A DNA stretch of 54,579 bases from Crocinitomicaceae bacterium. GTDB lineage: Bacteria; Bacteroidota; Bacteroidia; Flavobacteriales_D; Parvicellaceae. This document shows, piece by piece, positions 10,826 to 15,673 of the stretch. The notes beneath the pieces are model-generated. The model saw nothing but the letters and a program-made list of their open reading frames with translations. It was not told the DNA's origin and searched no databases. The position numbers and the translations under genes were made by a program. The stretch spans positions 1 to 54,579 of the forward strand of contig PBNK01000038.1 of NCBI GenBank assembly GCA_002723085.1. The letters run 5' to 3'. Position 1 is the first letter of the stretch, and the number at the start of each line of letters is the position of its first letter.

Positions 10826-12004
10826 ATGAAAAATAAGTTTAAAATAGGGAAGCTGTTTTTGATTTTAGCTATTGTGAGTTTTTCGTCAAATATATTATCA
10901 CAGACGAGAGCGTACTATAATAAATACGAATATCGAAAAAAAAGACACGAGATTAATTTTGGTGGTGGTTTTACTAATTGTTTAACTGATTTGGGGGGGT
11001 CTGATATGACTCTTGTTGAAATCAATGAAAAAGATAGATATCGTATTTTTAGATCTGTATATGATCTTGATGTTTCAAAAAGTAAATATGTATTGAATTT
11101 TGCTTATTTATATCATATGAAAAGTAGGCTTAATTTTAGGGCTAATGTTGCATTAGCAAATATTTCAGGGGATGACTCTAAAACTCAAGAATTTTATAGA
11201 AACAATAGAAATTTAAACTTTACTACATATATATTTGAATCTTCTGCAATTCTAGAATTCTACCTTACGTTGCCAACTACAGGTACAAAATATAACCTTA
11301 GAAATATTGCAGGCCAACGTTTGGCACCTAGGTTTTTTCAACAATTAGGGTTATATGTTTTTTCTGGAATTGGTGGTTTTTATTATAACCCAACGGCAAT
11401 TAACAATCTAACATATAATAATAGTAATTATTGGAACACGAATTTTTCACCAGTTAATACTCAAAGAACAGTAAGTTTAAGAGAACTTCATACTGAAGGC
11501 CAAGGTATGCCAGGTGATCCTGCTGGTTTTCCAGCTGGTCAGACGTATTCAACTGTAGCACTGTGTATTCCAATGGGGTTTGGAATAGAAAAAGCGTTTA
11601 ACAGCAATACCGGTTTAAAAATAGAAGCAGGCTATAGGTATACAACAACAGATTATTTGGATGATGTAAGTACAAATTATTATGATAAAGATGCAATTTT
11701 AGCCACTTATGGTGCAACTGCAGCAACCATGTCGGGAACTAATTCTGGGAATTTATGGAATTACATAGGGTATGATGACCCAACTTTATGGCCAGAAGAC
11801 GCTAATTCTTACATAGCACAAGGACCAAGGGCTTATCAAGTGGATAAATCATATACTGAAGAAGGTTACCAAAGAGGTAATCCAAATAATAAGGATGTAT
11901 ACATGTTTGCAACATTATCTTTTTACAGAAAATTTAGAAGTAATCCAAAAGCATACAGTACAATCTTAAGACATCAAAAACGAAAAATTAAAGCTTCTTT
12001 TTAA
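10826..12004 (+). CDS. DUF6089-like outer-membrane beta-barrel protein
   Basis: 392 residues with a signal peptide (cleavage near ILSQ, residue 26). The mature N-terminus (KRHEINFGGGFTNCLTDLGG) and the strand NISGDDSKTQEFYRNNRNLN match the DUF6089 pattern of Bacteroidota outer-membrane proteins: an HEI...GG opening, then a GDD...RN motif before the next strands. Alternating aromatic strands throughout support a small barrel. A 120-residue region rich in Tyr, Asn and Gly (about 185-310) looks like long extracellular loops. It is apparently monocistronic. Its stop overlaps the convergent CotH stop through a shared TTAA. No function beyond outer-membrane location is supported. Confidence 0.8.
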   Translation: MKNKFKIGKLFLILAIVSFSSNILSQTRAYYNKYEYRKKRHEINFGGGFTNCLTDLGGSDMTLVEINEKDRYRIFRSVYDLDVSKSKYVLNFAYLYHMKSRLNFRANVALANISGDDSKTQEFYRNNRNLNFTTYIFESSAILEFYLTLPTTGTKYNLRNIAGQRLAPRFFQQLGLYVFSGIGGFYYNPTAINNLTYNNSNYWNTNFSPVNTQRTVSLRELHTEGQGMPGDPAGFPAGQTYSTVALCIPMGFGIEKAFNSNTGLKIEAGYRYTTTDYLDDVSTNYYDKDAILATYGATAATMSGTNSGNLWNYIGYDDPTLWPEDANSYIAQGPRAYQVDKSYTEEGYQRGNPNNKDVYMFATLSFYRKFRSNPKAYSTILRHQKRKIKASF

Positions 12005-13359
12005 TTATTTCTGGCGTATTCTAATTGACTTTTTAATTCAATGATAGCATCTTCCCAATTTTGTAGTTTAAGAGCATCATCATGATTTTGTTCAGCTTGT
12101 ATTGTAGCATTTCTAATTTGGTTTGCCCATTGATCTATTAAAGAGTTAACAGTTTGTTCAGACATAGGACCATTTATTAATGAATCTTTTAATTGCTGGT
12201 ATTTAATAGTGTATTTTGCTATTCCAGCTGTTATTCTATCACATGCTGCTGATTTCTGATATATTCCCCAAGATCCATATTCAAAGGGTTGACAATTATT
12301 TGTGGTGTCTCCCCATATATCTGCAATTGGGGTTACTGGATTAGCATTTGTCATAATATTTTCAAAAGCATTATCTAAATCCCAAGGAATTAAATGTACA
12401 TTGTTTGTAGAGGGGTTTTCATACCAAAAAAAGTTATGTGGTTCACATCCACCCCAATTACAATACCAGTGAAATGGTCCATCATCATTTCTTATAGTTC
12501 TGTCTACTACTGCTAGTGCAATGGTTTGGTTTAGATTCATATTATTATCAACAACTGTTTGAATTTCAGCATCATTAGCATTTAAAATATTTTCTGCAAA
12601 ACTTTTTATAATGTAATTGTTAACTCCTGCTTGCTTATTAGTGACAAGTCCTTCATAAAATTTTCGGTCCGATTGAACAGTATTGTCGCTATTTAATGGC
12701 CATACTTCTTTATATAGATTACCAGACCCATCAGAAAAATGATAATTTGTAAATTGTTCGTCTATTTGTTCTACTAAAGAAAATAATCCGATATAAACTC
12801 CATTAATATATAATTTAGCATGTATACATCTTGGTGCTGGGACACCCATTTCTTTAAACAACCAATATCCTAATCTATCGTGTAATTGAGAATCATCAAG
12901 ATTCATAGAGTGAATTTGTAATGTTTTTTGATTGTAAAAGGTTGAATTATAACCTTTCCAATCAATTTTAAATTTCATAGATAGTTTAGTCGCTGTTTTA
13001 AATCCTGATGGGTTGCTCCAGTCGTTTCCACTTACTCCTCCAACAAATGCACCAACTGAACCCTTATATCTTATTCCGATAGGGCTAATGGTTTCTCCAT
13101 TACATGTTAAACTTCCTTCTACATATTCTTCAGCAGCAGGGTCTGAATCAATGTATTCTAAAGCTCCAACTGGAAGGTTGATTTCAAAAATAGGTAGCTT
13201 ATTTTGATCAAAAAGAGAATCAGATGGTTGAATAAGGTAGTTTTCATTTCCATTTGGAATTACAATTTCAACACCTGATGAGGTTAATCCATCTATTTTA
13301 TTACATGAGTATAAAAACAAAATGAATAAAACACATATGGAATAAATTTTAGTCATCAT
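12001..13359 (-). CDS. CotH kinase family lipoprotein
   Basis: 452 residues with a signal peptide ending in LYSC (lipid-anchored). The body matches the CotH atypical protein-kinase family: RYKGSVGAF near the N-lobe, LYINGVYIGLFSLVEQID with a conserved glutamate, a central Trp/Cys-rich FHWYCNWGGCEPHNFFWYEN, and the metal/catalytic LIPWDLDNAFE. Characterised CotH proteins phosphorylate spore-coat proteins; in Gram-negative bacteria the substrate is unknown, and an exported kinase needs an external source of ATP. It overlaps the upstream DUF2490 gene by 8-11 bp depending on which of two tandem ATGs is used, so the two are probably translationally coupled. Confidence 0.87.
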   Translation of the reverse strand: MMTKIYSICVLFILFLYSCNKIDGLTSSGVEIVIPNGNENYLIQPSDSLFDQNKLPIFEINLPVGALEYIDSDPAAEEYVEGSLTCNGETISPIGIRYKGSVGAFVGGVSGNDWSNPSGFKTATKLSMKFKIDWKGYNSTFYNQKTLQIHSMNLDDSQLHDRLGYWLFKEMGVPAPRCIHAKLYINGVYIGLFSLVEQIDEQFTNYHFSDGSGNLYKEVWPLNSDNTVQSDRKFYEGLVTNKQAGVNNYIIKSFAENILNANDAEIQTVVDNNMNLNQTIALAVVDRTIRNDDGPFHWYCNWGGCEPHNFFWYENPSTNNVHLIPWDLDNAFENIMTNANPVTPIADIWGDTTNNCQPFEYGSWGIYQKSAACDRITAGIAKYTIKYQQLKDSLINGPMSEQTVNSLIDQWANQIRNATIQAEQNHDDALKLQNWEDAIIELKSQLEYARNN

Positions 13360-14092
13360 TGTTTTTATTTAAATAATTCTTTGTGTAGTGTTTTTTCGAG
13401 TAATTATATTTAATTCCAAACACATGCATTATTTCAGGGTTCCATTGTTTGTATTGTTTTTCAAACATGTATTTAAAAGTTATGTATTGATTTTTATTTA
13501 TTTTTTTCTTGGTACCTATTGAAATTCGGTATCTGTTATATTGATCAGAAGGATGATGAATACTTCTTAAGAAAAATTCAATTCCAACTTTTGGATCTAA
13601 TTTCCAATTTTTAATGTTATACGATAACACTGTTTTTATTCGCCAGTATTTTCTAAGTTCCCCAACATATTTATTGGTGTTTTTAAATGTTTCTCTTCTT
13701 CTTTGAGATTGAATTTTATACTCAATTTTAAAACGATTGTTATTCCCTAAATTATGTTTTAAAATCCAGTAGAAATTATATCTGTTATATTTTGCTAAAC
13801 CCTCTTCAAAATTGATGTTTCTTAGAATATACCTGTAACTTATTCCCCAATATAAAGATTTAGATATTTTTTCTTCAATTTGAAATTCAGTAAAATTTCT
13901 TTCAATACTTCCATTATCAAAATCAATTCTTAATTGATTTTCTAAATTAAATTTCCAATGATTGTTAAGTTTTAAAGAAATATTTCCACTTAACCAGTTT
14001 TCAGCACCTATTTCAGGCATTCTCTGGCTAATGGAAATAAAAGAAAGCCCAATAAAAAATAATAGTATTGTAAGCGTTTTAGTTTTTCTAAT
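13349..14092 (-). CDS. DUF2490 outer-membrane protein with non-canonical start
   Basis: Aromatic/charged alternating strands (NFTEFQIEEKISKSLYWGIS, YRYILRNINFEEGL, FKIEYKIQSQRRRE) fit the DUF2490 outer-membrane barrel family. The first ATG is at 14020, but the frame continues upstream and encodes a textbook signal peptide (RKTKTLTILLFFIGLSFISI, then SQRMPEIG). Translating from 14020 would lose export. Between the in-frame TAA at 14105-14107 and the signal sequence there is no ATG, GTG or TTG. The best start is ATT at 14092 (alternatively ATT at 14098), giving about 247 residues. A TATATTTG box upstream supports a start here. It is coupled to the CotH gene. A mutated start or sequence error is the alternative. 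Confidence 0.75.
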   Translation of the reverse strand: MRKTKTLTILLFFIGLSFISISQRMPEIGAENWLSGNISLKLNNHWKFNLENQLRIDFDNGSIERNFTEFQIEEKISKSLYWGISYRYILRNINFEEGLAKYNRYNFYWILKHNLGNNNRFKIEYKIQSQRRRETFKNTNKYVGELRKYWRIKTVLSYNIKNWKLDPKVGIEFFLRSIHHPSDQYNRYRISIGTKKKINKNQYITFKYMFEKQYKQWNPEIMHVFGIKYNYSKKHYTKNYLNKNNDD

Positions 14093-14115
14093 TGAAATTA
14101 AATTTTAATTATAAT

Positions 14116-14123
14116 CAAATATA
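14116..14123 (-). promoter_or_regulatory. -7 box upstream of DUF2490-CotH
   Basis: TATATTTG on the minus strand fits TAnnTTTG exactly. The nearest TTG is 26 bases upstream, longer than usual. Transcription would begin near 14109, only about 15-20 bases before the proposed ATT start and well upstream of the ATG at 14020. Confidence 0.4.
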
Positions 14124-14176
14124 ACCATCTTAAATTACATTAAGATACTCAACATTTATTTGAATTTTTATGAAAT

Positions 14177-15673
14177 TTATAATCCAAAACCAAAGTAACC
14201 TTTAGTCCCATCTGTATAAACTCCTTCAATTAAAATGCCTCCTTTTTTATATTTTAAAAAGTTTATTAGTTGTTTTTTAGAAGAGACGGGTCGTTTATCA
14301 ATATGTGTTATAATAAATCCAGTCTTCAACCCTGCATCTTTAAATTTTCCATTTTCTAAAGATTGAATTTTAACCCCAAAATTTAGTCTTAATTTTTCTT
14401 TTGTTTTATCATCAACATCTATAAATAGAGCTCCGTGAACAATTGATTCTTTTTCTAATTGATGTTTATTTATGATGTCCGTATTTCCACTTTCATTTCT
14501 TAACTCAACACTTATTAATTGATTTTCGCCATCTCTGCTAATGATTAAATTTACTATATCGCCAGGCTTGAATTTTCCGATTTGTTCTTGAAGTTCAGGT
14601 ACATCATTAACCTCAGTATTTTCAACTTTAAGAATGATGTCGTTTACTTTTATTCCTGCATCAACTGCAGCTCCACCTGAAGCTAATCCAGCTACAAGAA
14701 CACCTTTTGTATCTGCTAATTTTAATTCATTCATTACATCTTGAGTTACGTCTTGAATAACAACTCCAATGAATGCTCTTTGAACCATCCCGTAATTTTT
14801 CAAATCATTAACTACTTTTAAAGCAATGTTTGAAGGAATTGCAAATGAATAACCTGAATAAGAACCTGTTTTTGATGCTATTGCAGTATTTATACCAATA
14901 AGTTTACCTTCAGGATCAACTAAAGCCCCTCCACTATTTCCAGGGTTAACAGCAGCATCTGTTTGAATAAATGATTCTAAAGGAAATATATTTTCATTGC
15001 TATTGCCTTTCAAAATATTTATATTTCTAGCTTTAGCGCTTACTATTCCAGCTGTTACAGTTGAAGTTAGGTTGAATGGATTGCCTACGGCTAATACCCA
15101 ATCTCCTAGATGTACATCATCAGAATTTCCAAATGAGGTAAAAGGTAAATTATTTTCATCTATTTTTAATAAAGCCAGATCTGTGCTTGGATCTGTTCCA
15201 ATTAAATTGGCATTTAATTCTCTACCATCATTTAGAGTTATGCTGATTTTATCAGCATCGTCAATAACATGATTATTAGTAACAATGTATCCATCTTCCG
15301 AAATTATAACTCCAGATCCTGTAGCAATTTGAGACCTTAAACCTCTACTCCCACCAGGTCCCCAAAAAAAATCCATCAAAGGGTCAGAATTGTAAGTTTG
15401 AGAATATTCGCTAATAATGTGAACTACTGAATTTACCGTTTTTTCAGCTGCTTTTGTAAAATCCATCTCTTTAGGAACAATGGTATTTAAATTTGAATTC
15501 ACAACTTTAAAATCTTCTTCATTAATTTCTTTTACCTGAATATTTTGTTGAATATCTTGCACTTCGCTTTTGTTGATTATTTTTGAAGTGTTATTGAAAA
15601 AAAAGTGAGAAAATAATATAGATATTGTTGCACCTAGAAAGGCAGATAATGTTAAGGATAGCTTATTTTTCAT
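14177..15673 (-). CDS. degP: Do-family periplasmic serine protease (DegP/HtrA-like)
   Basis: Envelope protein-quality-control protease, 498 residues. An N-terminal hydrophobic segment (about 5-27) serves as signal or anchor. The trypsin-like domain carries an intact triad: His135 in TNNHVID, Asp165 in STDLALLKI, Ser247 in GNSGGALV. Two PDZ domains follow, roughly 295-395 (GVLVAGLASGGAAVDAGIKV) and 415-498 (KFKDAGLKTGFIITHIDKRP). Length and architecture agree with DegP/DegQ. It is probably transcribed alone, divergently from dapF across an 85-bp gap in which I find no exact promoter box. Discrimination between DegP, DegQ and DegS subtypes is not possible from motifs alone. Confidence 0.93.
   Translation of the reverse strand: MKNKLSLTLSAFLGATISILFSHFFFNNTSKIINKSEVQDIQQNIQVKEINEEDFKVVNSNLNTIVPKEMDFTKAAEKTVNSVVHIISEYSQTYNSDPLMDFFWGPGGSRGLRSQIATGSGVIISEDGYIVTNNHVIDDADKISITLNDGRELNANLIGTDPSTDLALLKIDENNLPFTSFGNSDDVHLGDWVLAVGNPFNLTSTVTAGIVSAKARNINILKGNSNENIFPLESFIQTDAAVNPGNSGGALVDPEGKLIGINTAIASKTGSYSGYSFAIPSNIALKVVNDLKNYGMVQRAFIGVVIQDVTQDVMNELKLADTKGVLVAGLASGGAAVDAGIKVNDIILKVENTEVNDVPELQEQIGKFKPGDIVNLIISRDGENQLISVELRNESGNTDIINKHQLEKESIVHGALFIDVDDKTKEKLRLNFGVKIQSLENGKFKDAGLKTGFIITHIDKRPVSSKKQLINFLKYKKGGILIEGVYTDGTKGYFGFGL

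Follow-up and report, generated by a model that had tools for sequence, protein, structure and literature searches.

A DUF2490 gene lacking a canonical start codon ahead of its signal peptide, and candidate near-cognate start codons in the same bacterial family

The window (the whole 54,579-nucleotide stretch of DNA analyzed here) is contig C38 of a 2.43-Mb draft genome that comprises 46 contigs and is 95% complete. Its minus strand carries a DUF2490 gene, located between a protease gene and a cotH gene, with the following features.

14177..15673, minus strand: upstream trypsin/PDZ protease gene (Pfam)
14126..14128, minus strand: in-frame ATG 5′ of the TAA, not useful as a start (context score −1.14)
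14116..14123, minus strand: TAnnTTTG promoter-like box TATATTTG (pattern; 23 and 17 nt ahead of ATT 14092 and ATT 14098, respectively)
14105..14107, minus strand: in-frame TAA, with a TAA in the sister species at an equal codon distance from the mature protein (sequence)
13349..14104, minus strand: DUF2490 frame, from the first codon past the in-frame TAA to its own stop (translation, Pfam, model)
14096..14098, minus strand: ATT, alternative start with a poorer context (0.52, 30th percentile)
14090..14092, minus strand: ATT, proposed start codon (context 5.66, 91st percentile of sister-supported ATG starts)
14024..14092, minus strand: signal peptide IRKTKTLTILLFFIGLSFISISQ (by reading, and by a model helix at residues 2–20 with low local confidence)
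14018..14020, minus strand: ATG, first canonical start, within the conserved mature N-terminus (context 16th percentile)
12001..13359, minus strand: cotH (CotH kinase family, PF08757), with an ATG start and an 11-nt overlap with the DUF2490 end (13349–13359) (Pfam)

The two gene assignments of the original prediction were confirmed by Pfam matches to PF08757 for CotH and to PF10677 for DUF2490 (E 1.1e-12; 48.5 bits, above the gathering cut-off of 29.8; residues 36–218). The in-frame signal peptide that it had placed upstream of ATG 14020 was likewise found, followed by a predicted barrel; cleavage near SQ was assigned by reading rather than by a prediction program. A structure model of the DUF2490 product, based on a 10-sequence alignment, had an N-terminal helix at residues 2–20, where local confidence was 50–60, and 11 strands (mean pLDDT 78.9, pTM 0.72). 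Foldseek searches with this model returned barrels, among them porin-type and mitochondrial ones, at weak scores (best E 7.8e-4, for Omp32; NanC, TM 0.46/0.55). The product is predicted to be an exported outer-membrane β-barrel, Pfam itself stating only that the function is unknown, and a protein with this fold would need to be exported.

On the minus strand, the 5′ codons of the DUF2490 frame are TAA (14107–14105), AAT, TTA (14101–14099), ATT (14098–14096), TCA, and ATT (14092–14090), followed by AGA AAA ACT AAA ACG CTT ACA ATA and, at the end of this stretch, AGC CAG AGA and then ATG 14020; the stop codon is at 13351–13349. Direct reading agreed with the claim that no ATG, GTG, or TTG precedes ATG 14020 and that only ATT 14098 and ATT 14092 are available, and showed that CTG is also absent from the frame between TAA 14107–14105 and ATG 14020. 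A signal peptide that is not preceded by a canonical start is unusual. The presence of an ATT ahead of it is no more than chance (probability of at least one ATT in nine codons of this sequence, 0.34). The promoter-like box named in the original prediction lies at 14123–14116, and its distances of 23 nt and 17 nt from the two ATT codons are both usual for this genome, in which such boxes occur 10–60 nt upstream of 36 of 190 genes compared with 13 of 190 in an antisense control. Folding of the window DUF2490 start region was no better than that of shuffled sequences (−0.3 kcal/mol, z 0.29).

Two in-frame ATG codons flank this region. Translation from ATG 14020 would begin at the first canonical start and give an unexported product, which is highly improbable: this codon, whose context reaches the 16th percentile, lies within the conserved N-terminus of the mature protein (SQRMP.IG.EN), and an outer-membrane barrel is predicted for the product. 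The ATG at 14128–14126, upstream of the TAA, was absent from the original prediction. It shares the reading frame of the signal peptide, and translation could run from it through TAA 14105–14107 by readthrough or if the TAA were erroneous; this is scarcely credible, given that the sister has a TAA at an equal codon distance and starts after it, that the context of ATG 14128 is poor (15th percentile), and that it lies upstream of the promoter-like box. An erroneous TAA joining ATG 14128 to the gene was rejected on the basis of the sister TAA and this poor context. In the sister, a creD gene (PF06123) is located between the protease gene and DUF2490 (window 14104–14177 compared with L032:1560–2970). 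Among nine genomes searched, creD was found only in the sister and was absent from the window genome and the seven others; creD loss as the event that removed the DUF2490 start was thus discarded, because gain in the sister is equally likely and no alignment of the breakpoints was obtained.

DUF2490 relatives were present in 34 of the 60 genomes searched, the window genome included. Matches at E ≤ 1e-20 were restricted to five of the 39 genomes of the family, namely the window genome, its sister G001 (76% amino acid identity), G019 (60%), G033 (59%), and the distant G003 (32%); the sister locus L032 (JAQWRG010000047.1) is the same region as L003 of G001. An ATG precedes the signal peptide in 25 of the 27 loci whose 5′ end was inspected (a count that leaves out L014, L023, L027, and L028), the exceptions being the window gene and L005. 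In particular, DUF2490 starts with ATG in the sister (L003/L032) and in the cousin G019 (L004). The ATT thus lacks conservation, and its reading as a regulatory device kept in the manner of infC is not supported for DUF2490.

The alignment of upstream codons that had been proposed as a check yielded an ATG in relatives: the 5′ end of the sister gene reads TAA CAA ATG TTA TTT GTA, and its ATG aligns ungapped opposite TTA 14101 of the window. Over the first 13 codons, the window and the sister share 16 of 39 bases, which is not significant (permutation 0.22), so that the ancestral start position is unreadable; over the last 14 codons they share 21 of 42, a marginal similarity (permutation 0.03). 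The alternative offered with the original prediction, a recent start-codon mutation, came closer to the alignment, which points to a start-codon change in this lineage, be it a real mutation or a consensus error. In L005, from the G033 draft, which contains Ns, no ATG or GTG precedes the DUF2490 signal peptide and the only TTG falls within the hydrophobic core. A run of 11 A and an N lie nearby. L005 may represent either a sequence error or a second start-less ortholog. Frameshifting or slippage at the DUF2490 start was rejected, as a long A-run is found only in L005 and none in the window.

We scored candidate starts with a context matrix derived from 190 genes of the window genome whose ATG aligned to an ATG in the sister. 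The matrix favors A upstream and directly downstream of the start. Adenines are also favored near the starts of Flavobacterium johnsoniae genes, notably at −3 (PMC6847099); the terms infC, AUU, and non-canonical do not appear in the main text of that paper. The score of ATT 14092 (5.66) exceeded those of 91% of the 190 sister-supported ATG starts and of 99.7% of random ATT/ATC/ATA codons and was close to that of the infC ATC of the same genome (92nd percentile). Of the best near-cognate decoys flanking the true start in 183 genes, 1.1% reached it. The context values favor ATT 14092–14090 over ATT 14098 as the putative DUF2490 start, and the features expected of a start appear to be mostly there at 14092, apart from the G of ATG; its base at −3 is T, as opposed to the favored A. 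However, the AGA codon beside ATT 14092 scored 6.41, above the ATT itself, and TTA 14101 scored about 4.3 (ATG 14020, −0.84; ATG 14128, −1.14), and the matrix therefore points to a neighborhood, not to one codon. Of 189 genes, only 64 had the true start as the best of 29 in-frame codons and 103 had it in the top three, and the true ATG outscored the best decoy in 130 of 183 genes. The context of the sister DUF2490 ATG reached only the 13th percentile.

Constraint on the locus was estimated by NG86, using the window and the sister only. The values were dN 0.176 and dS 0.741 for DUF2490 and dN 0.120 and dS 1.033 for cotH; unique residues numbered 16 in the window and 11 in the sister for DUF2490 (245 columns) and 26 and 32, respectively, for cotH (447 columns). 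The DUF2490 frame is thus under purifying selection, which fits a translated gene, although a very recent loss would look alike. The DUF2490 stop and the cotH start overlap in all four close orthologs (by 11 nt in the window and by 8, 4, and 8 nt in the others), which makes the coupling of the two genes claimed in the original prediction plausible.

These data bear on the possibility that the start codon was recently lost, leaving DUF2490 effectively silent and beginning to decay while cotH is translated independently from its own ATG. The ATG of the sister and G019 speaks for such a loss, as does a TPR gene elsewhere in this draft, which has ATC in place of ATG and is apparently frameshifted as well. 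Conversely, the DUF2490 frame and signal peptide are intact, the window-unique residues show no clear excess (16 compared with 11), and cotH, whose start overlaps DUF2490, is constrained too, a pattern that again would not differ after a very recent loss. On balance, we consider start-codon loss rather unlikely.

Other start-less genes were sought with a secreted-ORF scan that relied on a crude signal-peptide pattern and a home-made ORF score rather than a gene finder and covered 1.23 Mb and 939 likely genes, the window included; one hydropathy scan passed over the DUF2490 gene because of its score cut. The tested stretch contained no canonical start in 13 of 64 signal-peptide-like ORFs, and inspection of these 13 by eye left ten as pattern artefacts and three as real: DUF2490, the TPR gene (L042:793–1614), and a membrane protein gene (L086:1679–3004). 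The latter is a 441-codon frame without a Pfam match at E 0.001, the first 40 codons of which include no canonical start, and the TPR gene has its ATC where the closest sister-genome relative (56%) has ATG. We also observed a TAG in place of a sister Trp codon in an ATP-grasp gene (L042:13494–14189), a stop after 13 codons of an upstream in-frame ATG in a LuxE-like gene (L088:12188–13111), and, at L057:12154–13188, a frame that by eye resembles prfB (release factor 2) and is entered past a stop without a nearby start, a pattern that is presumably the one expected from the known programmed frameshift of prfB.

Upstream conservation was sampled between about half of the window genome and part of the sister. 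In 37 of 227 sister-paired genes, alignment extended at least seven residues upstream of the first start, by eye mostly owing to conserved leaders or overlaps; the clear start-less cases among the 227 pairs were DUF2490, in the window genome only, and a GDSL-lipase-like gene, in both. When 212 sister proteins were tested, 23 alignments contained in-frame stops, mostly in leaders by eye, and one was frameshift-like. Accidents in starts and frames thus occur in this draft, and DUF2490 could be one of them. In line with this, the draft could carry a one-base consensus error at 14090 or nearby, with the true genome having a canonical start: ATT differs from ATG by a single base and its start context is otherwise normal, and the 46-contig assembly holds other single-base interruptions, such as the ATP-grasp TAG. 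Considering that the DUF2490 ORF contains no internal lesion and that interruptions among the 212 tested proteins were few by eye, such an error has a fairly low probability.

The start codon of E. coli infC, which encodes IF3, is AUU and serves autoregulation. In Streptomyces and Staphylococcus aureus, infC starts with ATC (PMC5472188) and AUA (PMC13009471), respectively. We read infC in six genomes (loci L034–L039): the window genome (G000), G001, G019, G033, G003, and G051, which belongs to another family of the order. In all six, the stretch from the upstream stop to the conserved N-terminus of IF3 contains no canonical start, and the start by reading is ATC in four genomes, ATT in one, and ATA in one. 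The infC-style initiation at ATT invoked in the original prediction is thus plausible in that the organism's own infC lacks a canonical start, whereas a conserved regulatory role is not supported for DUF2490.

Two further genes of the window genome lack a canonical start.

L089:17959–19065 (G000:C41:17959–19062): fatty-acid desaturase (PF00487); orthologs L171–L176 and L189–L197 (Pfam)
L097:13791–15257: GDSL-lipase-like gene; sister ortholog L165:9348–10814 (PF13472, 33.6 bits against a cut-off of 32.9)

In 13 of 16 desaturase orthologs, no canonical start is present from codon −30 to codon −11 relative to the LRKRVN motif, as far back as the upstream stop, and codon −19 in these 13 is ATC (11) or ATT (2). 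The G031 ortholog, cut by a contig end, has ATG at −19, and two g9 orthologs have ATG at −17. Among the 12 distant desaturases with a readable motif, ATG is at −19 in eight and at −17 in four; three further distant loci have no readable motif and are outside the 12. The desaturase copy directly upstream in the window genome is one of the eight with ATG at −19. An additional GTG is found at −3 in L172, within the conserved body, and no desaturase match was present in the sister draft, which is 73% complete. In the window genome, the ATT at codon −24 has a better context than the ATC at −19 (3.54 compared with 2.12), and the start position of this gene may therefore have shifted. No report of a near-cognate start of a bacterial desaturase was found in the open-licence literature.

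The GDSL-lipase-like gene has no canonical start in its first 26 codons in the window genome and 22 in the sister, and ATT AAA is found at codon 5 in both. Its frame overlaps the upstream gene by 34 nt, and the overlap alone may conserve those codons; a near-cognate start in both species is suggested less surely than for infC and the desaturase. Together, these results support the notion that near-cognate initiation is practiced in this bacterial family, but its use by DUF2490 is not thereby shown, and the desaturase is a stronger result and lead than DUF2490.

For DUF2490 itself, we consider it about an even chance that the gene is live and carries a lineage-specific ATT in the start position, most likely at 14092–14090, with weak AUU initiation. 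The promoter box and an A-rich start context lie in their normal places. Initiator tRNA would accept the AUU as a near-cognate start with a fraction of the efficiency of AUG, the Met-initiated pre-protein would be exported, and ribosomes finishing DUF2490 would feed cotH, so that both products would be made at a low level. IF3 penalizes AUU, as established for infC, and DUF2490 output might accordingly follow IF3 activity.

Like infC, DUF2490 has no canonical start and an ATH codon in the start position, and the infC ATC of its own genome has a context similar to that of ATT 14092; the near-cognate start of DUF2490 is not conserved, however, whereas infC has one in every one of the six genomes. 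E. coli pcnB reportedly has an AUU start, demonstrated by experiment. It resembles DUF2490 as an ordinary gene limited by such a start and differs in function, the DUF2490 start being predicted from sequence. In S. aureus, near-cognate starts outside the initiation-factor genes include those of cvfC1 (AUU) and of ccpN and citZ (AUA), and in poor medium the reporter output from AUU/AUA starts was about 10% of that from AUG, with ccpN reaching up to 30% in rich medium (PMC13009471). Extended Shine-Dalgarno motifs are conserved in both cvfC1 and ccpN (PMC13009471), whereas none was seen by reading before ATT 14092. In Listeria monocytogenes, mutation of the rsbW ATG to ATA or ATT lowered but did not abolish the protein on Western blots; for ATT, fluorescence was undetectable (PMC13068326). 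This case also involves a one-base ATG-to-ATT change in one lineage, but the rsbW mutants were laboratory-selected and tested (PMC13068326), whereas the DUF2490 ATT, natural or an error, is known from sequence. The S. aureus output and the reduced Listeria protein suggest, but do not show, that DUF2490 is expressed at a low level, as we infer. In Streptomyces, sigR has a GTC start that is repressed by IF3 and is coupled to rsrA, which parallels the non-canonical start on the first gene of an overlapping pair seen here; the sigR start is conserved across Streptomyces and was tested with IF3 mutants (PMC5472188), neither of which applies to DUF2490.

A broader and decidedly speculative reading is that a small, IF3-tuned set of genes in the family has AUC/AUU starts that are selected and tie envelope and lipid genes to initiation stringency, comprising infC, the desaturase, the GDSL-lipase-like gene, and, in this lineage, DUF2490–cotH; the desaturase would be the conserved core of this set. 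Gene finders usually accept only ATG, GTG, and TTG, and such genes would therefore be truncated in databases and lose their signal peptide. The gain from DUF2490 alone is modest. Shine-Dalgarno pairing is rarely used in this phylum; provided that AUU/AUC starts are in use there and in some cases conserved, they would offer a natural test of how weak starts are selected without Shine-Dalgarno help, for which the desaturase, with its ATG-started copy directly upstream in the window genome, would provide a built-in control.
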